IMG/VR virus record: IMGVR_UViG_3300025010_000029
Location: 1 to 64,000 of that record
DNA: 64,000 nt
Reading direction: 5' to 3' (one strand)
DNA from: a virus
Position numbers and translations under genes: made by a program. Positions 19,978 to 61,802 of this stretch are shown piece after piece (position 1 is the stretch's first letter; each line of letters starts with the position of its first letter). The notes below the pieces were generated by a model. It was given only the letters and a program-made list of their open reading frames with translations. It had not been told where the DNA came from and did not search any database.

Positions 19978-20169
19978 TTACAAACATAATATATAGCTTA
20001 TCGCATATGATATTCCTGCACCTGCTGGTATACCTAACCCCCAAGCTATGCATATATTTTTCCATAATGAATTTCTAAAATCTAATTTAAACATTATTAA
20101 TAATGGCATTAAGCCACCAAAAAACATTCCAGTTAATACATTAATGGTAGTAAGTGTATCGTTGTCCAT
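19978..20169 (-). CDS. Small membrane protein with two transmembrane helices
   Basis: 63 residues: hydrophobic segments at about 9-27 (INVLTGMFFGGLMPLLIMF) and 40-62 (ICIAWGLGIPAGAGISYAI), joined by a short basic loop (KLDFRNSLWKN). The glycine-rich second helix is holin-like in appearance, but no holin family is recognised. Confidence 0.55.
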   Translation of the reverse strand: MDNDTLTTINVLTGMFFGGLMPLLIMFKLDFRNSLWKNICIAWGLGIPAGAGISYAISYILCL

Positions 20170-27832: not shown

Positions 27833-29212
27833 TTACCTCCTTCTTCTTTGCGTTCCCCTAGCAAACGCCCTACATGCTCTTGAAAATTCATTCTCAAATA
27901 CCACTGTACAATCATCAGCCCTACTTACTTGGTGTACTACTTCATGTATTAATGTATCAAACAATTGATCCCAATCTTCAAGAATTTCTTTTTCAATATA
28001 TATTGTTTGTTCTTTGTGTACGCACAAGCCACTACATTTATTACCATGATCATCATGTAAATTTTCTTTGTAGCGAATTGTATACATTTCAATTTCCATT
28101 GGTGATAAATAATACTTTGTTATAAGTTTTTTAACTTCTTTAATATTGTCTTTTTCTTCTTCTTCTAATTCCCTAACTTTAACATCTTCCCCTACAACAT
28201 CACCATGATGTTGTAGGGTTTTGATTGAATCAAATATACCAAGCTTCTCAAACAATGGAATAATACCACTTACAGGTTTGTCAAGTAAATTATAGTGTCT
28301 ATAAAGCACTTGCACATCAGCAGGAGAATTGCTGGCATAACATACTTTACTTCCCCATAATTCTTTTGCTACTGCTTGCCACAATTTGATATTTTTAGTG
28401 TTAAAGTAGTAAGAATCATATGTTTCCATACAACTCTCATTAATATTTAATAATACTGATTTTATTATTTCTTTGTCAATTGTTTCAGATAAAATGTACT
28501 CCCATACATGGTTGTTAATTGTCCATATACTTACAGCGTTTCTGTCTCTATTTGATAATCTTTTACCAACCAGATTATAACCATATAAGCACTTTAATTT
28601 TAAATCAATTTCAACACCATTGATATACAATTTGTTTGCATCTTTGAGAATCGAATTCTTGGTAAACAAATGTTTATCATTATTGCTGGCACTGATAAAA
28701 CCAAAACAAGCATTAGCTTGATTGAATTCTTCCTCAGAACATTCCAATGAAAATCTACAACCTGCTATTCTATTATTACGATAGATATATAATACTAATT
28801 CTTCACTGCTTAAACTCCCAATCTCAAATTTAGCTTCAATGTCATAACCTGGGATTGAAATTTGAGCATACTTGCCACATTGGGAAGCAACTTTAAGTGA
28901 TAATTTCATACCTTCGCCATTCTCACCTGGGCTATTGTTATCTTGACGTTGCTGTGAATTGCCAATGAGTAACATTTCCAATCCAAAACCTTTGCCATAA
29001 TCTTCCCATATTGCAATACCTGTTTGTTTGTCATAATAATGATTGCCATTTTGTCCCAATGTTTGTAAAGCATAAACATAATTTTGTGCAAATTCTTTGC
29101 AAGCATGAAGAATCGTCCAATTTGACAAATAATTGTTTGAAATAATTGTTTCCTTTCTTAAAAATAATTCCATTTGTTCTTGATTGTTGTTGATATTTAA
29201 AGCTGGTGACAT
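27833..29212 (-). CDS. GHKL-type ATPase domain fused to an HEXXH metallopeptidase-like domain
   Basis: 459 residues. The N-terminal ~150 residues carry Bergerat-fold motifs: N-box HACKEFAQNYVYA (Asn44), G1 EDYGKGFG (71-77) and G2 PGENGEGMKL (95-104), as in HSP90/MutL/MORC ATPases. The C-terminus has LIHEVVHQ (HEXXH 423-427) with a downstream Glu (about 440) as possible third ligand, a gluzincin-like zinc site; the two residue sets are intact. The protein ends in RRRR. The fusion suggests an ATP-gated protease or a sensor coupled to proteolysis. Both domain calls are by motif; substrate unknown. Confidence 0.65.
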   Translation of the reverse strand: MSPALNINNNQEQMELFLRKETIISNNYLSNWTILHACKEFAQNYVYALQTLGQNGNHYYDKQTGIAIWEDYGKGFGLEMLLIGNSQQRQDNNSPGENGEGMKLSLKVASQCGKYAQISIPGYDIEAKFEIGSLSSEELVLYIYRNNRIAGCRFSLECSEEEFNQANACFGFISASNNDKHLFTKNSILKDANKLYINGVEIDLKLKCLYGYNLVGKRLSNRDRNAVSIWTINNHVWEYILSETIDKEIIKSVLLNINESCMETYDSYYFNTKNIKLWQAVAKELWGSKVCYASNSPADVQVLYRHYNLLDKPVSGIIPLFEKLGIFDSIKTLQHHGDVVGEDVKVRELEEEEKDNIKEVKKLITKYYLSPMEIEMYTIRYKENLHDDHGNKCSGLCVHKEQTIYIEKEILEDWDQLFDTLIHEVVHQVSRADDCTVVFENEFSRACRAFARGTQRRRR

Positions 29213-31369: not shown

Positions 31370-32932
31370 TTAGCTGATTAATTTTCTTAATTTCATATAT
31401 TGCAACAATTCGCTGTATTTATACATTTTTGCCCAATTTACAATATCGTTAAATGTCGTACTTTGAATATCTTGTAGTTTAACATCTCTAACAAAATTTA
31501 ACAAACACTGGCAGAATTGCAATGTAGCAACAAATGTTTCATACTTCAATGTACCTCTAAAAATTCTTAATTCAATTGTTTCTACATTTCTAATATTTAC
31601 GGTACAATAGCGGTCATGTTTATCTTCGGCATATTTTAATATTGTGTTAATGTCAGTATGGCAATATCTTTTGCACCATGTAGACAATTGGTCTTCTGTT
31701 CTACGTGAGAATAACACAAATTGATCCCAAAATACTTCTGTTACATATAACAATTTTGCAATATTATACTCTTGTTCTGTTCTAGTTTTACCGAATGCCT
31801 TTCTGTTAATGTGAACATGTAAACCACACGTTCCAGAAGTATGACTTCTATAACCTAATTTTATAGCTTTTTTCATTAACTCCTGCCATTTGAATTCTTT
31901 TAGATGTTTTTCCAATGTGGCAGGGTGACTAACAATTTCAAAACCATTGCAAGCTCTGCTATCTTTATCACAAATTGACCCATCGTATTTGGTGTAAAAT
32001 TTACTTTCATGTTTATTACCATTAACAATACTTAATAATCTTTTAGCGTTTTCATCACTGAAGCCACCTTCTCCAATTTCCAATTCTACACCAAAAAGGT
32101 CAGCTTGACTCTTTTTCATGTAAAATATTGGGTCTGGTCTATACTTATAATGATGAATAGCACTTGCCTCAAAAAAGCAGTTCATACAGTAATGTTTATT
32201 ATTAATAATATAAATATTAGATTTTATTTCCACCCAATTACCACATTCAGGACATAAATCATATTTATTTCTGCAATTATTACAAATTCTTCTACCATTA
32301 TTGTCAATTCCATTACTTTCTTTAATTAAATGATAACCACCACAACACCTACAATGAAAAAATTCTAATCTGAAACATTCTCTGCAATAATATTTGCCTT
32401 GATGTTCTGTCGCGTCACAACTTTCCGTATTTACTACAACACCACAACAACTACATGGTTTAAAATATCTATCATAGCATTTATCACAAATTGGTTTGTT
32501 ATTTTTGCCATATGTTTTGGTAACTTCAGAACGTAAGTGATAATTGTAACAATTAGAACACATTAAAAATTTCTCATTAAAACATTTTTCACAATAATCA
32601 ATATTATCCTTCCTATACATATAGTCTTCATGAATTTTTTCGCCACAACATTTACATGGTTTATAGTATCTATCATGACATTTACTACATATCATTCTGC
32701 CATTGGAATCTGTTATTAACTCTGATTTTAAAAGGTGTTTTCCACATTCACTACAATATGAATATTTTTCATTGAAGCATTTATAACATAATTTTTCTTC
32801 AGTTAAAACGTACATACTTCTAACATTTTTTTCAATTCCGCAGTCTGTACATACTTCAGTTATAACTGGGCTCCTTAGTGGTTGTAGTCTAAAACTGTAA
32901 TTCATGGTATAATTCATGTTAGATATTGTCAT
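31370..32932 (-). CDS. Zinc-finger amidoligase A
   Basis: 520 residues. Residues ~28-262 are a tandem array of CxxC zinc ribbons/LIM-like units (CTDCG, CSECG, CKCCGE, CSNCY, CSCCG, CRCCGG, CPECG). Residues ~280-500 match the putative amidoligase fold (glutamine-synthetase-like COOH-NH2 ligases): FGVELEIG at 280-287, FEIVSHPATL about 341-350, CGLHVHI 369-375 and RIFRGTLKYETF. These enzymes join a carboxylate to an amine using ATP. A paralog lies at 35115-36575, and a GATase II and a GGCT are nearby. The target may be a protein bound by the zinc array; inferred. Confidence 0.75.
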   Translation of the reverse strand: MTISNMNYTMNYSFRLQPLRSPVITEVCTDCGIEKNVRSMYVLTEEKLCYKCFNEKYSYCSECGKHLLKSELITDSNGRMICSKCHDRYYKPCKCCGEKIHEDYMYRKDNIDYCEKCFNEKFLMCSNCYNYHLRSEVTKTYGKNNKPICDKCYDRYFKPCSCCGVVVNTESCDATEHQGKYYCRECFRLEFFHCRCCGGYHLIKESNGIDNNGRRICNNCRNKYDLCPECGNWVEIKSNIYIINNKHYCMNCFFEASAIHHYKYRPDPIFYMKKSQADLFGVELEIGEGGFSDENAKRLLSIVNGNKHESKFYTKYDGSICDKDSRACNGFEIVSHPATLEKHLKEFKWQELMKKAIKLGYRSHTSGTCGLHVHINRKAFGKTRTEQEYNIAKLLYVTEVFWDQFVLFSRRTEDQLSTWCKRYCHTDINTILKYAEDKHDRYCTVNIRNVETIELRIFRGTLKYETFVATLQFCQCLLNFVRDVKLQDIQSTTFNDIVNWAKMYKYSELLQYMKLRKLIS

Positions 32933-32981
32933 AATAAAAAATCCCCCTCATTTTATTATATTTTTGTTATGTTAGAATCAT

Positions 32982-33048
32982 GATGTCTTTATTCTATACA
33001 CTATTATAATTAATATTTTATACTTGCTAGTGTATAGATAAAAACATC
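32982..33048 (-). repeat. Nested intergenic hairpin NH-6
   Basis: Outer GATGTTTTTAT/ATAAAGACATC (11 pairs, one wobble), inner CTATACACTA/TAGTGTATAG. It ends one base before the stop of the AUU-start gene. Confidence 0.75.
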
Positions 33049-33315
33049 TTAAATAACATCTTGTAGATTTATTTCTTTAGGTATAAAACTATTTTTTTCA
33101 TAACAAAATGTATAATTTTCTTTTAAACAAGTAGAACATATTAATCTTTTACTTCTGTTAATACAAAATAATGTTTCTGGCAATGCGAATTCTTCACAAT
33201 CAGCACATTTAATATAATGCTGTTCTATGCAATTTTCGCATATTTCTTTATTGCTTATATCTGGAAATGTTTCGCTGGCTTGTTTTTTACAATGGTGACA
33301 TTGTTTTAATTTAAT
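33049..33315 (-). CDS. Multi-zinc-finger protein with AUU start (88 aa)
   Basis: No ATG, and no suitably placed GTG or TTG, begins this open frame, yet the product is plainly protein-like: CHHCKKQ, CENCIEQ, CADCEEF, CSTCLKE, a chain of CxxC pairs like those of the neighbouring amidoligases. AGGAGGTATAATT precedes ATT 33313-33315; the gene at 34893-35000 has the identical AGGAGGTATAATT followed by ATG, which identifies the ATT as the start. It sits between the GATase II and amidoligase A. Likely an adaptor sharing the amidoligase zinc array; the role is inferred. Confidence 0.7.
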   Translation of the reverse strand: MKLKQCHHCKKQASETFPDISNKEICENCIEQHYIKCADCEEFALPETLFCINRSKRLICSTCLKENYTFCYEKNSFIPKEINLQDVI

Positions 33316-33347
33316 AATTATACCTCCTTTATTTTATATATTATTAA

Positions 33348-33402
33348 AAATGCTTTTAATGCTATACTGTTATAATTAACCAGTATAGACATAAAAACAC
33401 TC
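33348..33402 (-). repeat. Nested intergenic hairpin NH-7
   Basis: Inner CTATACTG/CAGTATAG; outer AGTGTTTTTATG pairs with CATTAAAAGCATT (one bulge, wobbles). Between GATase II and the AUU-start gene. Confidence 0.6.
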
Positions 33403-33403
33403 T

Positions 33404-34246
33404 TTATTTTAATGCAGTAGTACCATAACTAGCACCATAAGCATCATAATATCTTGCTTCTTCTTCCTCACATGCCAAACATTCTTGGTAGTAATGGCAC
33501 TCACTGCAACTTTTTACAGAAAGAGACAATTGACAAGTTTTTTTGTACTCTAATTCAACAATTTCTAGTACATTTTCAATGGTTGTTTGTGTTGTTGTAG
33601 TTGCTGTTTTAGTCTGTTTGGTATATTTACTATATTTACTACTATAATAACTGGTTTTATAATAATGACTTTCATAGGATGAATTGCTGTAATAACAACC
33701 ATCCATTTTATTGTAAATAAAGTTTCCAATTATTTTAATTTCAGAAGGTGACATAATGACAAATTTACTTTTGGTTGCTTCAACAATTAAATCTCCAACA
33801 CCTGGATGAAATATTACATCCTTCATATTTACTAAATATTTAGATACGAATACCATCGTGTCAGAGGTATTTTTGTCATCACCGCAAAAGCTAATAATTC
33901 CATTATGGACAATAGCCAAGTCTGTTTTAATTAATTTAGCTTTAAGATGTTTAGTATTAGTTGTTACTGGGAATGGATGACAATTGCCTTTGTTTACTTT
34001 CCCATGCGAAGCCATACGGAAATGTATAGATAATTCCAATTCTTGCATATTTTCTTTTTGTGATAACTCACGCAAAGCGTTCATAAGAGCATCAAACTTC
34101 ATAAAACCTTTTTGAATTGTTACAAAAGATTTTGAAGGATCTTGGTACATAAAACCAGCACCATCCCAATTGTTATCCCAACAATTTTGCAATGTTTCAT
34201 ACTCTGGTAAAAATTCTCCTGCTGGTTTATAAACGATTATACACAT
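33404..34246 (-). CDS. Class II glutamine amidotransferase-like protein
   Basis: 280 residues from ATG 34246, which follows CAGGAGGTTTTATT and makes Cys2 the N-terminal nucleophile (MCIIVYKP), as in Ntn-type GATases. Supporting motifs: WDGAGFMYQD, HFRMASHGKVN...CHPFP, AIVHNGII and TSDTMVF. The family releases ammonia from glutamine for a partner ligase. Tyr/Ser-rich linker (about 185-215) and C-terminal Cys cluster are additions. Between two amidoligases, it most simply supplies ammonia or remodels glutamine substrates; that coupling is an inference. Confidence 0.75.
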   Translation of the reverse strand: MCIIVYKPAGEFLPEYETLQNCWDNNWDGAGFMYQDPSKSFVTIQKGFMKFDALMNALRELSQKENMQELELSIHFRMASHGKVNKGNCHPFPVTTNTKHLKAKLIKTDLAIVHNGIISFCGDDKNTSDTMVFVSKYLVNMKDVIFHPGVGDLIVEATKSKFVIMSPSEIKIIGNFIYNKMDGCYYSNSSYESHYYKTSYYSSKYSKYTKQTKTATTTTQTTIENVLEIVELEYKKTCQLSLSVKSCSECHYYQECLACEEEEARYYDAYGASYGTTALK

Positions 34247-34290
34247 AATAAAACCTCCTGTTTTTGTTTTAATTTTAAACATTTTAATTA

Positions 34291-34362
34291 AAATGCTTAA
34301 TACAAGGCTTAAATTATTGATTGTTATTGTTTATGGATAATTTAAGCCTTCAATAAACATTC
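34291..34362 (-). repeat. Nested intergenic hairpin NH-8
   Basis: Inner stem AAGGCTTAAATTAT/ATAATTTAAGCCTT (14 bp perfect); outer AATGTTTA/TAAGCATT. Upstream of the GATase II gene. Confidence 0.75.
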
Positions 34363-34372
34363 TTTTATTTTT

Positions 34373-34528
34373 TTATTTTCTTAAATCGTTAAGTATATTC
34401 ATAGCAATGATAATCATAAGTAAAATCACTTCATTGTTTGTAGGATTATTATTAAAAAATTTAATTGTACCACCTACAAGAACCCCAAATAAACAAATAC
34501 CAGTTATTGTTTTAATATAACTCATCAT
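34373..34528 (-). CDS. Small membrane protein (51 aa)
   Basis: ATG 34528 behind AAAGGAGGTATTTAAATA. Hydrophobic segments at about 5-22 (IKTITGICLFGVLVGGTI) and 33-46 (VILLMIIIAMNIL). Likely one or two membrane spans; no family. Confidence 0.55.
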   Translation of the reverse strand: MMSYIKTITGICLFGVLVGGTIKFFNNNPTNNEVILLMIIIAMNILNDLRK

Positions 34529-34556
34529 TATTTAAATACCTCCTTTATTATTTTAA

Positions 34557-34618
34557 AATAAATACTTAATACAAGGCTTAAACATATTAGTAATTTAAGC
34601 CTTCAATAAACATTTATT
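34557..34618 (-). repeat. Nested intergenic hairpin NH-9
   Basis: Inner AAGGCTTAAA/TTTAAGCCTT, outer AAATGTTTA/TAAGTATTT; compared with NH-8 the outer stem differs but still pairs through wobbles. Confidence 0.7.
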
Positions 34619-34874
34619 TTATACAGTCTATACATAACCATGCATCTTTATAAAAAAGCAAATCTACTGGCTTGCGACATGCTGTACAACATGGTTTAAG
34701 AGTATATAGTTTACCTTTACAAATATAATTTCCTAATTGATAAACATTAGAATTATAAATACATTCAAACTTTAATATTTCTTCATTTGGTGGAGTTTTC
34801 CGTTTATGTCCATAAGGTATTTGTCCTTTCCATTTTTTTTCATCTTCAGACCATAAATAATCTATTTTTGCCAT
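34614..34874 (-). CDS. Zinc-binding hypothetical protein (86 aa)
   Basis: C-terminal CCTACRKPVD and WLCIDCIK suggest a four-cysteine site. N-terminus is charged (YLWSEDEKKWKGQIPYGHKR). Belongs to the same run of zinc-ribbon genes around the amidoligases. Confidence 0.55.
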   Translation of the reverse strand: MAKIDYLWSEDEKKWKGQIPYGHKRKTPPNEEILKFECIYNSNVYQLGNYICKGKLYTLKPCCTACRKPVDLLFYKDAWLCIDCIK

Positions 34875-34892
34875 TGTATACTATACCCCTCC

Positions 34893-35000
34893 TTACACTT
34901 GTTTAATATCTTGTATATACCTTTGCTTGCAAATATTAATATGCTTAGGACTGTTACGACACTTATTTAAAAACAGACAACTAAAACATTTAGTGAACAT
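34893..35000 (-). CDS. Cysteine-rich micro-protein (35 aa)
   Basis: ATG 35000 behind AGGAGGTATAATT. Contains CFSCLFLNKC and a later Cys, likely one zinc site. Serves as the reference for the AUU start at 33315 because the 5' sequence is identical. Confidence 0.6.
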   Translation of the reverse strand: MFTKCFSCLFLNKCRNSPKHINICKQRYIQDIKQV

Positions 35001-35036
35001 AATTATACCTCCTATTATTTTTATTTTGTAAAACAA

Positions 35037-35100
35037 AAAGCCTTTATAATAAGCATTTACCTAATTGCATTTTGGCAGTAAATGCTTACATAAAAACTTC
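35037..35100 (-). repeat. Nested intergenic hairpin NH-10
   Basis: Outer AAGTTTTTAT/ATAAAGGCTT, inner TAAGCATTTAC/TAAATGCTTA. Downstream of amidoligase B. Confidence 0.7.
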
Positions 35101-35114
35101 TTAATATTTTGTTT

Positions 35115-36575
35115 TTATGCTAATTTTCTTTTTTGCAGGTATGCAAGTAATTCTTGGTAATTAAAATCATTAGCATAATTTATAATTGATTTCCATGTTA
35201 AAGCTTGAATATGTTGAATATCTGTATTCCTTATTATATCTAATAAGGTTTGACAAAATTGCAATGTTGCGACAAATGTTTCATATTTCAATGTACCTCT
35301 GAAAATACGTATTTCTACTGTGTTAAAAGGTTTTAAGTTTATGGCATGGAATCTTGAAGTGTCAGAATCTTTTGCTACTTCAAGCAATTCTTTTGCATCA
35401 TCTTGTGTATTATTAAGAATATTAAATCCGTATCTGTCACAATATTCCAGTTGTTTTTCTGTTCTACGTGAAAATTTAACAAACTTATTCCAATGCATTT
35501 CTACAACAAGCAATAATTTTAATATATTTAGGTCTTGTTTATCCTCAGAAATTCCAAAAGCTTCTTTATTAATATGAATATGCAGACCACATGTTTCACA
35601 ATCATGTGATTTATAATTCAAATCAATAGCTTCTTCCATTAATTCCTGCCACTTAAATTCTTTTAGGTGTTTTTCCAATGTTGCTGGATGACTAACAATT
35701 TCAAAACCATCATCTATTGAAGCATCATTCTTAATATAAATATGATCTTCATCGTTATCATTCATTATGTCAAGCAATTTACTAGCATTTTCTTTGTCAT
35801 CTCCTCCATTATCAATTTCCAGTTCAACACCAAAAAGGTCTAATTCGTTTTTGGTGTTTCTGTGAAATATAGGTTCTGGTTTATATGAATAATTATGTAT
35901 TTTACCCTTGTGTTTTGGATAGCATTTGTCACAATAATCTTCCCAGTCAATTTGATTTCTTCCATTGTTTCCATTGCACCAACAACCACAATCACTACAT
36001 CTTACTATGCTCTCATGGCATGAGTTACAAATGACTGTATTATAACTGTCACTATTACCTTGATCATCATTGTAAACATTGCCACACTCTTCACACTTAA
36101 ATGTATTATTGCTAAAACAATGTGAACAATAACAATTTTCATTATGGTCTTTTTTCTTATCATCAACGTGTGTTATATCTTCACAATGATAACAAGTAAA
36201 ATAATTATCACCATAACAATCATTACAAACAAAAGTATGTCTGTCAATTTGTGTCATATCATCTTTTAAATGGTATTGATCGCATTCTTTGCACTGTTTA
36301 TAGTTATCATTCAAACATTCTTCACAAACATAAACATACTCGTTACTTCCTCCAACATCTGTCATATCATTGGTTATAAAATATTCACCACATTCTGTAC
36401 ATTCTGTATAATTTTCTAAGCACTCTTTACATACTTTGTCACCAGAGTTTACAACTGTTAAAAAATTGTCAAATTTCCTGTTTCCACATTCTTCACATAC
36501 ACCAATAGCAAATAATTTAAGCTCTGTATGTCTTTGAATTATGTTTTTGCTGGGAATTAATTTCTTGTATTTCAT
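35115..36575 (-). CDS. Zinc-finger amidoligase B
   Basis: 486 residues from ATG 36575 (GGAGGTTGTGTCTA upstream; an earlier ATG at 36584 is too close to the SD). Same layout as amidoligase A: a long N-terminal run of CxxC ribbons (CEECGNR, CKECLEN, CTECGEY, CKECDQY, CEECGNV, CSDCGCW), then LFGVELEIDNGG, GFEIVSHPATLEKHLKEF, CGLHIHI and RIFRGTLKYETF. The stretch FEIVSHPATLEKHLKEFKWQ is identical to A, so the two arose by duplication and kept the catalytic half more strictly than the finger half. Confidence 0.75.
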   Translation of the reverse strand: MKYKKLIPSKNIIQRHTELKLFAIGVCEECGNRKFDNFLTVVNSGDKVCKECLENYTECTECGEYFITNDMTDVGGSNEYVYVCEECLNDNYKQCKECDQYHLKDDMTQIDRHTFVCNDCYGDNYFTCYHCEDITHVDDKKKDHNENCYCSHCFSNNTFKCEECGNVYNDDQGNSDSYNTVICNSCHESIVRCSDCGCWCNGNNGRNQIDWEDYCDKCYPKHKGKIHNYSYKPEPIFHRNTKNELDLFGVELEIDNGGDDKENASKLLDIMNDNDEDHIYIKNDASIDDGFEIVSHPATLEKHLKEFKWQELMEEAIDLNYKSHDCETCGLHIHINKEAFGISEDKQDLNILKLLLVVEMHWNKFVKFSRRTEKQLEYCDRYGFNILNNTQDDAKELLEVAKDSDTSRFHAINLKPFNTVEIRIFRGTLKYETFVATLQFCQTLLDIIRNTDIQHIQALTWKSIINYANDFNYQELLAYLQKRKLA

Positions 36576-36626
36576 TAGACACAACCTCCTGTTATATTGA
36601 TATTTTAAATTTACAGACTTTTTAAA

Positions 36627-36688
36627 AAGCCTTTATACTGCACACTAATATGTTAATATGTTGGAATTAGTGTACAGATTAAAAACTT
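36627..36688 (-). repeat. Nested intergenic hairpin NH-11
   Basis: Outer AAGTTTTTA/TAAAGGCTT, inner CTGTACACTAAT/ATTAGTGTGCAG (one wobble). Upstream of amidoligase B. Confidence 0.7.
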
Positions 36689-36691
36689 CTT

Positions 36692-36832
36692 TTAATTATG
36701 ATACTTAATATGTCCTTCTGTATCAATTTCCATATATTTGAATTTATTTTTACTATTTATACTAATATATACTTTTGTCCCTACATCATCAGTTCCTAAA
36801 TATTCCCATTTTGCAGTATCAATTTTAATCAT
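36692..36832 (-). CDS. Hypothetical 46-aa protein
   Basis: ATG 36832 behind AAGGAGGTATAAA. Beta-rich small protein (KWEYLGTDDVGTKVYISINS). No family recognised. Confidence 0.55.
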   Translation of the reverse strand: MIKIDTAKWEYLGTDDVGTKVYISINSKNKFKYMEIDTEGHIKYHN

Positions 36833-36845
36833 TTTATACCTCCTT

Positions 36846-36872
36846 AGAATTAGTGTACAGATTAAAAACTTT
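36846..36872 (-). repeat. Half copy of NH-11
   Basis: AAGTTTTTAATCTGTACACT plus TAATTC repeats the 5' arms of NH-11, but the 3' arms are replaced directly by TAAGGAGG, the SD of the 46-aa gene. It cannot form the nested hairpin alone. Confidence 0.55.
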
Positions 36873-37247
36873 TTACTTTTTATTAATTATATATTTTTCA
36901 TAACACTTATCACAATATATTTTTCCTTTTCCATCATCTCCTGTTTTTTCAACGTGCATTTTTTCACCACAATAAAGACATTTAACATGGTTAATTCTGA
37001 ATGGATTAACGCATCTTTTTGCAAAATTCCATTTACATTCATTGTCATCAATTCCTAAAGCATCAAATAATTTCATTCTTAACACATTTAATTCCGCACT
37101 TGTCCCATACGTTTCTTGCAATTCTTGAACATGTTCAATTAATAATTCTGCCTTGTCTCTTTTTACTAACATTAAATTTGTTTCTGCAAGCACTGAAGAT
37201 AATACATTTCCCAATTCTACATTGTTTTTATTATTGTTGTTTTCCAT
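36873..37247 (-). CDS. Zinc-ribbon protein (124 aa)
   Basis: N-terminal helical region (SSVLAETNLMLVKRDKAELL), then CLYCGEKMHV and CDKCYEKY at the C-terminus forming a four-cysteine ribbon. Continues the zinc-protein series around the amidoligases. Confidence 0.6.
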   Translation of the reverse strand: MENNNNKNNVELGNVLSSVLAETNLMLVKRDKAELLIEHVQELQETYGTSAELNVLRMKLFDALGIDDNECKWNFAKRCVNPFRINHVKCLYCGEKMHVEKTGDDGKGKIYCDKCYEKYIINKK

Positions 37248-37286
37248 TAATAAAACCTCTTTTCGTATTTTATTTTGTTAAAGCAA

Positions 37287-37347
37287 AAAGTTTTTAGAAT
37301 GGATATTTACTGTGATAACAATAAGTAAATATCCATGTTAAAAACTT
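37287..37347 (-). repeat. Nested intergenic hairpin NH-12
   Basis: Outer AAGTTTTTA/TAAAAACTT (all Watson-Crick), inner TGGATATTTACT/AGTAAATATCCA. Confidence 0.75.
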
Positions 37348-37350
37348 CTT

Positions 37351-37773
37351 TTAATATTTCTTATCTCCAAACAATGCACACTGAATAATTATATTACACA
37401 TTTCATCAGTGTATAATGTTTCGTCAGAAAGAAAATAATTATACTTTTCCATATATACTTTTAAACCTTTTTTTAATTTTACGAGTGTTAAGGTATATTT
37501 TTCCACATTATCTTTATATTCATTTTTAACATCTTGAAATAACAAACTGCCACCAGCGACAAGAATTAATGTAGGGTTATTTGATTCTAAATTCAATCTA
37601 AGACACATTTCTTGCTCTTTTTTTGGCAATTTTTTGGTAGGCTGTTTAATAATTTCAATATTATTGCACCAATATTGTTTACTTTTGTTAATTCCTTTTT
37701 TCATAATACGATTAATATCGAATAAATTTATAAAACTACTCACTTTTACCTTTATTTCATAGTCTGTAAACAT
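37351..37773 (-). CDS. Hypothetical 140-aa protein
   Basis: Start ATG 37773 follows AAGAGGTTTTAAT (a longer frame to 37791 is unsupported). Alpha/beta pattern with a beta-rich centre (PTLILVAGGSLLFQDVKNEY). No family recognised. Confidence 0.55.
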   Translation of the reverse strand: MFTDYEIKVKVSSFINLFDINRIMKKGINKSKQYWCNNIEIIKQPTKKLPKKEQEMCLRLNLESNNPTLILVAGGSLLFQDVKNEYKDNVEKYTLTLVKLKKGLKVYMEKYNYFLSDETLYTDEMCNIIIQCALFGDKKY

Positions 37774-37812
37774 ATTAAAACCTCTTTTCATATTATTATT
37801 TTGTTAAAGCAA

Positions 37813-37869
37813 AAAGTTTTTAGAATAGACACTTCGAATTAAATAATAAAGTGTCTATGTTAAAAACTT
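37813..37869 (-). repeat. Nested intergenic hairpin NH-13
   Basis: Outer AAGTTTTTA/TAAAAACTT, inner ATAGACACTT/AAGTGTCTAT. Confidence 0.75.
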
Positions 37870-37894
37870 CTCTTTACCTTATGTGTTTATTATA

Positions 37895-38293
37895 TTAAAA
37901 ATTATCATAATACTCTCTCCAATCACCACTTTCTATTTTGTTACACCTGTCTAATATGTCATAGTTAAGAATATAAACATATGCCAATATTGTTATACCC
38001 TCATTATCAAACACTTCTTTTAATTCCCTGTGATATCCTGCACCTGATTCAATACGATCCAATTCTTTTAATATTGTTTCAAAATATTCAGGTAAAATAT
38101 AATATAATTCGCCATGTATTTTACCTTTTCCTGGTATAATGCCAGGATAAGTCCATAATTCATACATGTCAAATCCTTGTAAGATAGCTTTTTTCATTTC
38201 TGAAAAAATGTTTCGAATTCTGAAGTGATTACCAAAACCTTGCATCAGTGAACCATACATAAATAATGGATATTGTTTTTCAGTTTTTTTCAT
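37895..38293 (-). CDS. Gamma-glutamylcyclotransferase (AIG2/GGCT)-like protein
   Basis: 132 residues. PLFMYGSLMQGFGNHF carries the YGSL substrate-binding loop; LKELDRIESGAGYHRELKEV contains the conserved Glu and the Y-x-R/Y-H-R segment of the fold, and ILAYVYILN the closing strand. GGCT-like enzymes cleave gamma-glutamyl-amine bonds by cyclising the glutamyl group. With amidoligases and a GATase close by, it may undo or process the products; the pairing is reported for amidoligase gene neighbourhoods, but the link here is inference. Confidence 0.75.
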   Translation of the reverse strand: MKKTEKQYPLFMYGSLMQGFGNHFRIRNIFSEMKKAILQGFDMYELWTYPGIIPGKGKIHGELYYILPEYFETILKELDRIESGAGYHRELKEVFDNEGITILAYVYILNYDILDRCNKIESGDWREYYDNF

Positions 38294-56372: not shown

Positions 56373-56948
56373 TTATTTTTTAAAATAGTCGCCATTTTTA
56401 ATATCTAATAATATTCTTCTTAATTCTCCATAGTATTGATATAATTTTGGATTAACATATTTTATCCACTCTTCTTTATTGCCTTCTATTATTAATTTTC
56501 TTAATTTTGTTGCACTTATACCATTTTCTATTTGTCTTGGTATAATTAATTGACTTGTTAGTGGAATATCTTCTGGATTAAACCATTCATACCTTTTTTC
56601 ATCATTACCATAAATCATTATTTCTGGAATAGAACCAATATGTTTTGTTATAGTGTCCATTAAGTATTTACCCCACTTACCACCCTCAACATCATCTTCA
56701 TGAGTTAAATCATCTAATGGTAATATATTTAATTTATTATGATAAATTTCTTTTTGGAATACCTCATATATCATACCTGTTCTTACATAGACATGAAAAG
56801 GATTTCTTTCAACTCCTTCTAATTGTGCAGAACCTACAACAACTAAAAATTTATCACACATACTAAGTCCCAAATTAATCATTTCTTCATGTTTTATTGT
56901 TAACATTTGAAATCTTCCAATGCAAAATCCTGTTTTATATTTTTTCAT
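56373..56948 (-). CDS. Nicotinamide-nucleotide adenylyltransferase (NadM/NadR type)
   Basis: 191 residues from ATG 56948 (behind AGGAGGATTATATTA). GFCIGRFQMLTIKHEEMI carries the nucleotidyltransferase GRFQP.T..H motif (HxGH-type); VVVGSAQLEGVERNPF and GISATKLRKLI (ISxTxxR) complete the active site. Converts NMN + ATP to NAD+. Together with the phosphoribosyltransferase at 60081-61802 it forms a two-step salvage route from nicotinamide, the pathway some phages use to rebuild NAD+ depleted by host defences. Confidence 0.85.
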   Translation of the reverse strand: MKKYKTGFCIGRFQMLTIKHEEMINLGLSMCDKFLVVVGSAQLEGVERNPFHVYVRTGMIYEVFQKEIYHNKLNILPLDDLTHEDDVEGGKWGKYLMDTITKHIGSIPEIMIYGNDEKRYEWFNPEDIPLTSQLIIPRQIENGISATKLRKLIIEGNKEEWIKYVNPKLYQYYGELRRILLDIKNGDYFKK

Positions 56949-56964
56949 TAATATAATCCTCCTT

Positions 56965-57141
56965 CTATTTAAATTTATCATAACAAATATGCCAACCACA
57001 TATCTTACATGTTGCAGATACTTTTACCCCAGTTTTAAATCTCCAATTATATCTCTTATATTCGTATTCACGTTCTTCGTATTCCCATTGATGTTTGCAA
57101 AAACATGATCTAATATAATTTACAATATTTCTAAATCCCAT
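56965..57141 (-). CDS. Zinc-ribbon protein (58 aa)
   Basis: ATG 57141; CFCKHQWEYEERE and ATCKICGWHICYDKF form a typical phage zinc ribbon (F-C-x-H-x-W...C-K-x-C-G). It overlaps the SD of the adenylyltransferase gene. Unknown function. Confidence 0.6.
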   Translation of the reverse strand: MGFRNIVNYIRSCFCKHQWEYEEREYEYKRYNWRFKTGVKVSATCKICGWHICYDKFK

Positions 57142-60080: not shown

Positions 60081-61802
60081 TTATAAGCTACTTAATACTC
60101 TGCCTCTGATATCTGCTAAACTATCATCTCTTAATAATTTGCCATCAACAAATACTTCTTCCAGTAAATCATCTGCTCTAAATAGAGCTTGTTGTGCAAT
60201 TGATAATCCATCAATATATGTTATTTCATTTGTTGTTGAATCTTGAAGTACAACAACTCTGCCTTTTTGTGATTTTTTGATTTTGTCGAGATCAGTTTTC
60301 GGATTTTTAAAAATCAGTTTTTCTTTTCCATTTATTACTACGTGTGTTGCTTTAATAGCGATCATAAATGTATCTCTACTATAATAACCTAGTGAATATG
60401 AACCTACACCAAATATAACATTTTCACTAGAAAATCCTTTTTGTTCTAGTTTTTTAAATATTTCTTCTGCTCTTTCTGGATTGATGCTGTCACCATATAT
60501 AAGTGAAATATGTGAATCTAATACTTTATATCCTTTAGAATTAATTGTACCACCAAATATATCCCATAGTGATTCTATTGAACCTTTTTGTTCTATAGTC
60601 AATTCTACTTCTTCACAACTTATTACCTGTGTATAATCAATATAATAATATTGTTTATCATACCTGTTCCATTCAAATTCGACAATTATTTTATATATTT
60701 TATTATTATATTTGAAATACCCTTCATTTTTATCTACTCCATATTCTCCATGAGGTGTTTCATCTCTTACTTCTTCTTCTAAATATTCTTTCATCGTTTT
60801 AATACAATCATCTAATGTTTTACAATATTTATCATTTGTAAAATCTTCAACAATCACATTACCACAAATAATGTCAACTGGATTGCCCGTATCTGGTCTT
60901 ACGACCAGTTTACCATTTCTATTCATTATAATTTCTTTTAATTTTGGAATAATATTACCAATAACATTCCAATAATCATATCCATCTGATACAATACTAA
61001 CAATACCTTCAGGTACGATTTCAGTAATCATTTTTTTATAATATTTTAAATCATCCTCATATTGGCATTGAATCGAATGCTCAGAAGCGAGTACGCTTGA
61101 AAATACTAGCTCTTCTTCAACATTGGCATTATAGTAATGCTCTAAATACTGAGTGCTTGGTATAGTATCTGAGCCTGTGAAATATAGTAAATGTCCTGCC
61201 CCTGTTGTTATTGCATCTTCATTGCAACCCATTCCTCTATAACTGAAGTTGTGACATTGCCATTTAATATGTTCTTTACTATCGCATGTTTTTTCAGCCC
61301 ATTTTTCACATATATCTCTATATTTTTTTACTATTGTTGTAGATGTTATTACTTTCCACATTGAAACACTTATAAGTGTTTCTAAATAATTTGTTAACCA
61401 ATGAAATTCATTATTAGTATTTTCAATTGTAAACAATGGTGTTTTAATTGGTGCTAAAGTACCTTCTTTAAGAGCACGTATTTTAATTGGCAAATACCCT
61501 AAATCATGTAATGCTTCAATATGCTTAGTATCTGCACAATTATCCCCTAAAGTGTATTTAATAATTCTTTTATATTCTGTAATTACTTCTTCTTTGTTTC
61601 TACTAAAGAAATTTTCATTAAAGTATTCAATCAAATATTCTTTTATAAAACCTTGCAAACCAAAGAATACTACTTCATTAATATCTTTTAATCTTGTCCC
61701 TCTTGGAGTAAATGTAGAATATGTTTTCTCAATTCCTTTTTCAGTCATAATTCTGTGAGATATTTTATAACAATCTACTAATAACATTGGATTATATTTC
61801 AT
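60081..61802 (-). CDS. nadV: Nicotinamide phosphoribosyltransferase (NAMPT/NadV)
   Basis: 573 residues, longer than the usual ~470-490. Signatures: MLLVDCYKISHRIMTEKGIE, TPRGTR, FSYRGMG (FxxRG), RPDTGNPVDI and the phosphate loop YGDSINPE, then FGVGSYSLGYYSRDTFMIAI. Extra length lies in an Asp/Glu/Tyr-rich insertion (about residues 315-400) between RPDTGNP and GSIESLWDIFGGT. It makes NMN from nicotinamide and PRPP, feeding the adenylyltransferase at 56373-56948. Confidence 0.9.
   Translation of the reverse strand: MKYNPMLLVDCYKISHRIMTEKGIEKTYSTFTPRGTRLKDINEVVFFGLQGFIKEYLIEYFNENFFSRNKEEVITEYKRIIKYTLGDNCADTKHIEALHDLGYLPIKIRALKEGTLAPIKTPLFTIENTNNEFHWLTNYLETLISVSMWKVITSTTIVKKYRDICEKWAEKTCDSKEHIKWQCHNFSYRGMGCNEDAITTGAGHLLYFTGSDTIPSTQYLEHYYNANVEEELVFSSVLASEHSIQCQYEDDLKYYKKMITEIVPEGIVSIVSDGYDYWNVIGNIIPKLKEIIMNRNGKLVVRPDTGNPVDIICGNVIVEDFTNDKYCKTLDDCIKTMKEYLEEEVRDETPHGEYGVDKNEGYFKYNNKIYKIIVEFEWNRYDKQYYYIDYTQVISCEEVELTIEQKGSIESLWDIFGGTINSKGYKVLDSHISLIYGDSINPERAEEIFKKLEQKGFSSENVIFGVGSYSLGYYSRDTFMIAIKATHVVINGKEKLIFKNPKTDLDKIKKSQKGRVVVLQDSTTNEITYIDGLSIAQQALFRADDLLEEVFVDGKLLRDDSLADIRGRVLSSL

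Follow-up and report, generated by a model that had tools for sequence, protein, structure and literature searches.

What do two amidoligases with tandem zinc ribbons, a class II glutamine amidotransferase (GATase), a gamma-glutamylcyclotransferase (GGCT) and several free zinc-ribbon proteins do side by side in a virus? The question is raised by positions 31370 to 38293 of a 64,000-nucleotide stretch (hereafter the window), which comprises bases 1-64000 of the 165,697-base IMG/VR virus record IMGVR_UViG_3300025010_000029. Here we propose that the cluster may encode a two-enzyme amidating machine, composed of the GATase and the amidoligases, with the GGCT as an optional third enzyme, a reading drawn from sequence and structure models to which we assign a probability of roughly 0.45. 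The genes belong together as a module, carried by hundreds of phages and mobile elements, which probably serves to amidate selected targets of the host or of the phage.

The record encodes a terminase, a DNA polymerase, an NAD-dependent DNA ligase and a ribonucleotide reductase, and its source is therefore a large tailed phage; its DNA is AT-rich (GC about 27%). In the direction of transcription, on the minus strand, the cluster runs GGCT, a 146-residue open reading frame (ORF), a 124-residue ribbon ORF, amidoligase B, a 35-residue Cys-rich ORF, an 86-residue ribbon ORF, the GATase, a two-ribbon ORF and amidoligase A. Its main features are as follows.

37895-38293, minus strand: GGCT (GGACT/AIG2-like), 132 residues; PF06094, E 8e-24; relative of YtfP, with the Glu of LDxxE
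36873-37247, minus strand: 124-residue ORF with a single C-terminal zinc ribbon (CLYC...CDKC), called from its motif; the only match is a weak one to LIM
35115-36584, minus strand: amidoligase B, six N-terminal CxxC...CxxC ribbons and an Amidoligase_2 domain (residues about 245-489); PF12224, E 9e-11
34893-35000, minus strand: 35-residue Cys-rich ORF (MFTKCFSCLFLNKC...), possibly a zinc knuckle; a weak call by eye
34614-34874, minus strand: 86-residue free zinc-ribbon ORF (CTAC...CIDC), called from its motif; no family match
33404-34246, minus strand: class II GATase-like N-terminal nucleophile (Ntn) hydrolase, 280 residues, MCII start and C-terminal CSEC...CLAC knuckle; assigned from invariant residues and a structure model
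33049-33318, minus strand: free two-ribbon ORF (CHHC...CENC...CADC...CSTC), called from its motifs; probable ATT start after AGGAGGT
31370-32932, minus strand: amidoligase A, seven N-terminal ribbons and an Amidoligase_2 domain; PF12224, E 5e-10; paralogue of B

The amidoligases and the GATase retain their catalytic residues

An initial annotation of this DNA had named two amidoligases with tandem zinc ribbons, and both hold up on closer inspection: they score 40.2 and 42.6 bits against PF12224 (Amidoligase_2; cut-off 22) and carry 14 (A) and 12 (B) N-terminal CxxC motifs, equivalent to 7 and 6 ribbons, while sharing 44% identity with each other. Thirteen positions (G252, E254, E256, D287, S289, G293, E295, H335, H337, N416, T422, E424 and R426) do not vary among 56 sequences, A and B among them, and cover the ExE, HxH and ExR motifs characteristic of ligases related to glutamine synthetase, and all amidoligase copies retain the catalytic residues. 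Loss of active-site residues on closer alignment, set beforehand as a ground for refutation, was not seen, and the intact residues of both amidoligases and of the GATase rule out that these are dead enzymes.

Structure models, built from rows of the window and IMG/VR, are in line with this assignment. The model of B has a mean predicted local distance difference test score (pLDDT) of 85.6, and its residues 244-489 match YbdK (Z 12.5-12.8) and glutamine synthetase (Z about 12) over approximately 190-220 aligned residues; plant glutamate-cysteine ligase and GmaS are matched as well (Z about 12-12.8). A Foldseek search with the same model listed Dop and PafA (E about 1e-3, TM-score 0.25), together with LIM proteins for the zinc part, and a search of solved structures with the amidoligase sequence profile returned weak LIM/UBR4 zinc-finger matches only. 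We therefore predict from the models a fold of the glutamine-synthetase/YbdK type.

The likely start of the GATase is the ATG at 34246, behind CAGGAGG, which gives MCIIVYKPAG and places the catalytic Cys at position 2, as the annotated N-terminal Cys would have it; the mechanical ORF start, 34282, lies upstream. A start codon followed by Cys is found in 73 of 74 GATase rows, the remaining row having no resolvable start, and 36-42 relatives all have Cys2, Arg77, Asn115, Gly116 and Asp129. By sequence, no solved relatives of the GATase were found, and the NCBIfam matches in its group are the glutaminase parts of GlmS, PurF and AsnB. Its model (pLDDT about 97 for residues 1-190) matches the glutaminase domain of GlmS with Z 13.8 (root-mean-square deviation 3.8 over 172 residues) and EgtC with Z 13.4, effectively a tie, and we predict an Ntn glutaminase fold of the GlmS/EgtC type.

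The GATase gene travels with the amidoligase gene

A profile scan of viral contigs returned at least 554 relatives, of which the best 80 underlie the viral locus counts given here; GATase genes in the loci were detected with hidden Markov models built in this analysis. Scans of viral contigs with a single protein as query gave no match for amidoligase B or for the GGCT. A class II GATase occurs in 66 of the 80 viral loci, and among the 71 with enough downstream sequence it lies on the same strand and no more than 2 kb downstream of an amidoligase in 59, with a median gap of 33 nt in the clustered set. Moreover, across the 1.28 Mb that the related viral loci cover, each of the 67 GATase matches falls within 2 kb of an amidoligase, which rules out chance clustering. 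The initial annotation would have been undermined by a lack of co-occurrence in related elements; we find the genes together in unrelated phages and in mobile elements.

The pairing extends to bacterial genomes, a scan of which found 480 relatives. The best 80 bacterial loci, on which the following counts are based, come mainly from Ruminococcus flavefaciens and other Oscillospiraceae, and their neighbouring genes include a GATase (78 loci), DUF960 (59), a serine recombinase (46), a relaxase (38) and a small ribbon-helix-helix-like gene (36), the recombinase and the ribbon-helix-helix-like gene being named from sequence only. DUF960, common in these loci, has no counterpart in the window phage. 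Bacterial genomes carry 1 to about 8 amidoligase copies, some of them broken, and tandem amidoligases before a single GATase are found here too. Loci L124-L199, from Ruminococcus and other Clostridia, contain multi-copy cassettes made up of a relaxase, a small DNA-binding-like gene, DUF960, an amidoligase, a GATase and a resolvase. The natural reading of such a cassette, judged by its gene content, is a small mobilizable element. Since it is phages and mobile elements that carry the genes, the element itself most likely benefits, be it by taking over the host, countering its defences or excluding rivals.

The initial annotation suggested that a peptide or amino-acid tag could be added and removed, which goes beyond the evidence: we found no conserved small peptide substrate gene in the phage loci, and a GGCT is present in 3 of 50 records. 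No Pup-like partner was seen, and no small neighbour recurs generally across the viral loci, although no search aimed at Pup was made. Amidation by ammonia derived from glutamine accounts better than such a tag for the obligatory amidoligase-GATase pair. The gamma-glutamyl or isopeptide-type chemistry proposed alongside the tag is plausible from the folds of the ligase and the GATase, and we prefer amidation.

The GGCT is optional, but in some phages fused to the GATase

The GGCT annotated in the window exceeds the PF06094 cut-off (84.9 against 22.8 bits), has a solved relative in YtfP (E 3e-10) and keeps its catalytic Glu, its LDRIE aligning with the conserved LDxxEG. Its presence in 3 of 50 records carrying related amidoligases, some of them fragments, rules it out as an obligatory part in the wider family. 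In two of the three records, contigs G001 (124 kb; locus L010) and G042 (176 kb; locus L058), it shares one cluster with two amidoligases and a GATase. These are large phages only distantly related to the window phage, having in common with it scattered genes that are mostly 20-45% identical, so the full set either stayed intact or came together on more than one occasion. In phage C75C1 an amidoligase is followed downstream by a GATase fused to a GGCT (GATase residues 1-168; PF06094 at 167-285, E 3e-21). The same fusion is present in MW202828 and 12 IMG/VR contigs (49-92% identity); an amidoligase match precedes it on its own strand in 10 of these contigs, the other 2 holding only 1.2-1.5 kb of upstream sequence. 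A GATase-GGCT fusion beside amidoligases thus ties the three activities together directly.

These observations invite the main alternative, in which the genes encode a gamma-glutamyl cycle similar to EgtA/EgtC or GmaS/MgsA. The amidoligases would attach the gamma-carboxyl of glutamate to a protein lysine or a small amine, the GGCT and the GATase-like enzyme, an Ntn hydrolase, would act as erasers, and the glutamate would thereby serve as a reversible mark or as a protecting group. Such a cycle comes closest to the idea of the initial annotation and draws on the fusion, on the complete gene set in three large phages, on the presence of YbdK, glutamate-cysteine ligase and GmaS among the nearest folds of the ligase, on the tie between EgtC and GlmS, and on the known cleavage of gamma-glutamyl amines by the GGCT family. 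However, a GGCT was not found in 47 of the 50 records, so a GGCT dedicated to erasing is not a general feature; a second, different eraser would be redundant; and the NCBIfam matches of the GATase group point to glutaminase parts. We consider this cycle somewhat unlikely.

Amidoligases were probably duplicated repeatedly

The tree places the two amidoligases of an element together as closest relatives, with support of 100/99 for A and B of the window, 100/98 at L039, 98/91 at L034, 94/88 at L058, 93/91 at L010 and 97/54 at L023. From this topology it is most likely that duplication happened several times independently, although closer single relatives may exist outside the sample, which comprises the 80 best of no fewer than 554 relatives. 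Between A and B, synonymous sites have reached saturation: the identical-codon fraction is 0.62, where a saturated pair would be expected to give 0.59. This points to an old duplication and makes recent gene conversion between the two unlikely. In several amidoligase pairs the number of ribbons is unequal between the copies.

Zinc ribbons are shared among the partner proteins

Ribbons are present on most amidoligases of the viral set, as C-terminal tails on 33 of 73 GATase rows (a few of these rows being near-duplicates), and as the free ribbons of the initial annotation, of which the window phage has at least three (34614-34874, 36873-37247 and 33049-33318). In the last of these the ribbon spacing is identical to that of the amidoligase array; the ORF has a perfect AGGAGGT and no ATG, GTG or TTG start, and probably initiates at ATT or has lost its start. 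Such sharing of one ribbon module among the partners suggests docking or common targeting. The array falls below the Pfam cut-off for LIM (21.5 against 22.9 at L174), LIM structures being among its weak matches. That an array predicts a nearby GATase is a trend only (36/44 amidoligases with at least four CxxC motifs against 10/15 with none; Fisher p 0.28), and we do not retain it as a rule.

The arrays also weigh on two further explanations. In the first, the ligase would amidate peptidoglycan or surface peptides, or add amino acids to them, and so protect against superinfection, a role reportedly proposed for phiEco32 by Iyer et al. 2009, as cited by later papers. Those later papers keep it as the standing proposal; MurT/GatD is a case in which a ligase and its amidotransferase-type partner amidate wall peptides; and carriage on mobile elements fits exclusion. 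Large ribbon arrays, however, suggest contacts with intracellular proteins or nucleic acids, no wall genes recur in the viral neighbourhoods, and the hosts range from mycobacteria to Clostridia to marine proteobacteria, all of which leaves wall modification improbable in our view. In the second, the genes would be metabolic helpers that boost how the infected cell handles nitrogen or glutamate, as was argued for the four-gene set of Phage-ZRK32 (PMC10945688). The presence of ribbon arrays, the way these have diverged in paralogues and the spread of multiple copies on loci resembling mobilizable elements are ill suited to such a bulk role, and we give it very little credence.

A proposed glutamine-fed amidation system

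Considering folds and residues together, we envisage that the N-terminal Cys of the GATase would hydrolyse glutamine and release ammonia, and that A and B would spend ATP to activate a carboxylate on the target and join it to the ammonia or to another small amine. The ribbon arrays may hold the enzymes to each other, to the target, or both. Since A and B appear to share their chemistry and their arrays have grown differently, they probably differ in targets or subunit roles. The GGCT would remove gamma-glutamyl amides as 5-oxoproline, either as reversal or as clean-up, a step that many elements could dispense with.

Several observations weigh against this proposal. Ribbonless amidoligases of clostridia and of Bacillus phages often have no GATase nearby, and ammonia from this GATase is therefore not required by every member of the family. 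The window GATase scores 13.2 bits against Pfam GATase_4 (PF13230), below the cut-off of 23, so we assign it to the class II GATase superfamily and not to PF13230; partner GATases at L010, L174 and L004 do exceed the cut-offs of Pfam GATase models. EgtC, a gamma-glutamyl hydrolase, fits the GATase model as well as GlmS does, and the GATase may accordingly cleave and not donate. Plain amidation gives the GGCT no necessary role, yet some phages fuse it to the GATase. In addition, a PADLOC search gave no match to a known defence gene.

More tentatively, we entertain as possible a broader view, in which phages and mobilizable elements share a widespread, hitherto undescribed protein-amidation (or gamma-glutamylation) system, the ribbon arrays are swappable targeting parts of a glutamine-fed ligase of the glutamine-synthetase fold, and ligase duplication with array divergence reflects an arms race with proteins of the host or of rival elements. 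Should host proteins prove to be the targets, mobile elements would be using a kind of targeted modification that is new. We know of no substrate for the phage amidoligases of this fold since their prediction. The strict coupling to the GATase, the GGCT fusion, the compact cassettes in culturable Ruminococcus, such as the pair at 5917-8261 of L174, and the repeated ligase duplication provide tractable systems, and a clear question for them is whether the modification is amidation (-0.98 Da) or gamma-glutamylation (+129 Da).

Other features of the window

The window phage encodes two proteins with the GmrSD N-terminal domain (PF03235; 14920-16014 and 20512-21546), a nicotinamide phosphoribosyltransferase (60081-61802) and a weakly matched cytidylyltransferase-like protein (56373-56999), the last two being possible NAD rebuilding genes. 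The C-terminal part of a 459-residue protein (27833-29212) gives a weak match of the SprT-like kind (HEVVHQ), and its N-terminal part matches phrog_6077. Between positions 20000 and 43000, most minus-strand intergenic spacers hold a long bulged hairpin ahead of an AGGAGG ribosome site (for example 38385-38294, 37350-37248 and 31369-31266). The outer stem is often like AAGTTTTTA/TAAAAACTT and the inner stem differs from spacer to spacer; folding z is below -4 in 19 of 32 window spacers against 0 of 32 coding controls. Terminators, RNA processing sites and repeats are candidate readings.

Comparison with known systems

The description of phage sets of amidoligase, GATase and GGCT is reportedly traceable to Iyer et al. 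2009. The kind of module described here has been published; in the open-licence literature we found no description of the zinc-ribbon-array family, of its cassettes on mobilizable elements and spread on mobile elements, of the repeated duplication, or of the fusion between GATase and GGCT. Amidoligase, GATase and GGCT are on record in UFV-P2 and other LUZ24-like phages (PMC3890496), whose module resembles ours in having two ligases of the COOH-NH2/amidoligase kind, a class II GATase and a GGCT in about 6 kb on one strand. The members in UFV-P2 are COOH-NH2_lig, Amidoligase_2, GATase, ATP-grasp and AIG2/GGCT, and its amidoligase has no ribbon array, whereas the window has two Amidoligase_2 paralogues with arrays; COOH-NH2_lig and ATP-grasp gave no match in the 165.7-kb contig, though the search had no match in controls either. 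An amidoligase-GATase pair is likewise described in OM43 phages and Marvin (PMC10580990). In the Marvin group and in the OM43 phages MEP401/402 the amidoligase adjoins a class II GATase with identical catalytic residues, and the Marvin-group amidoligase bears N-terminal CxxC motifs as do those of the window; unlike the window, these phages have one amidoligase, no annotated GGCT nearby and no long arrays.

Amidoligase and GGCT are known together from C. clostridioforme prophages (PMC11318856). They lie side by side in Bacillus phage 022DV001 and Geobacillus phage GR1, and C75C1 combines an amidoligase with the GATase-GGCT fusion; in contrast to the window, the ligases of all three lack zinc ribbons, and no separate GATase was found near the ligase in 022DV001 and GR1. 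Among cellular enzymes, YbdK, glutamate-cysteine ligase, GmaS and glutamine synthetase, and possibly PafA-Dop, share the predicted fold of the amidoligase domain and the HxH, ExE and ExR residues, at an identity of about 8-14%. EgtC and the GlmS glutaminase domain share the fold and the N-terminal Cys Ntn-hydrolase site of the GATase, which differs in being free-standing, in its C-terminal knuckle and in having a partner ligase from another family. The association of a class II Ntn enzyme with a ligase of the glutamine-synthetase fold has precedents in MgsA with GmaS and in EgtA with EgtC.

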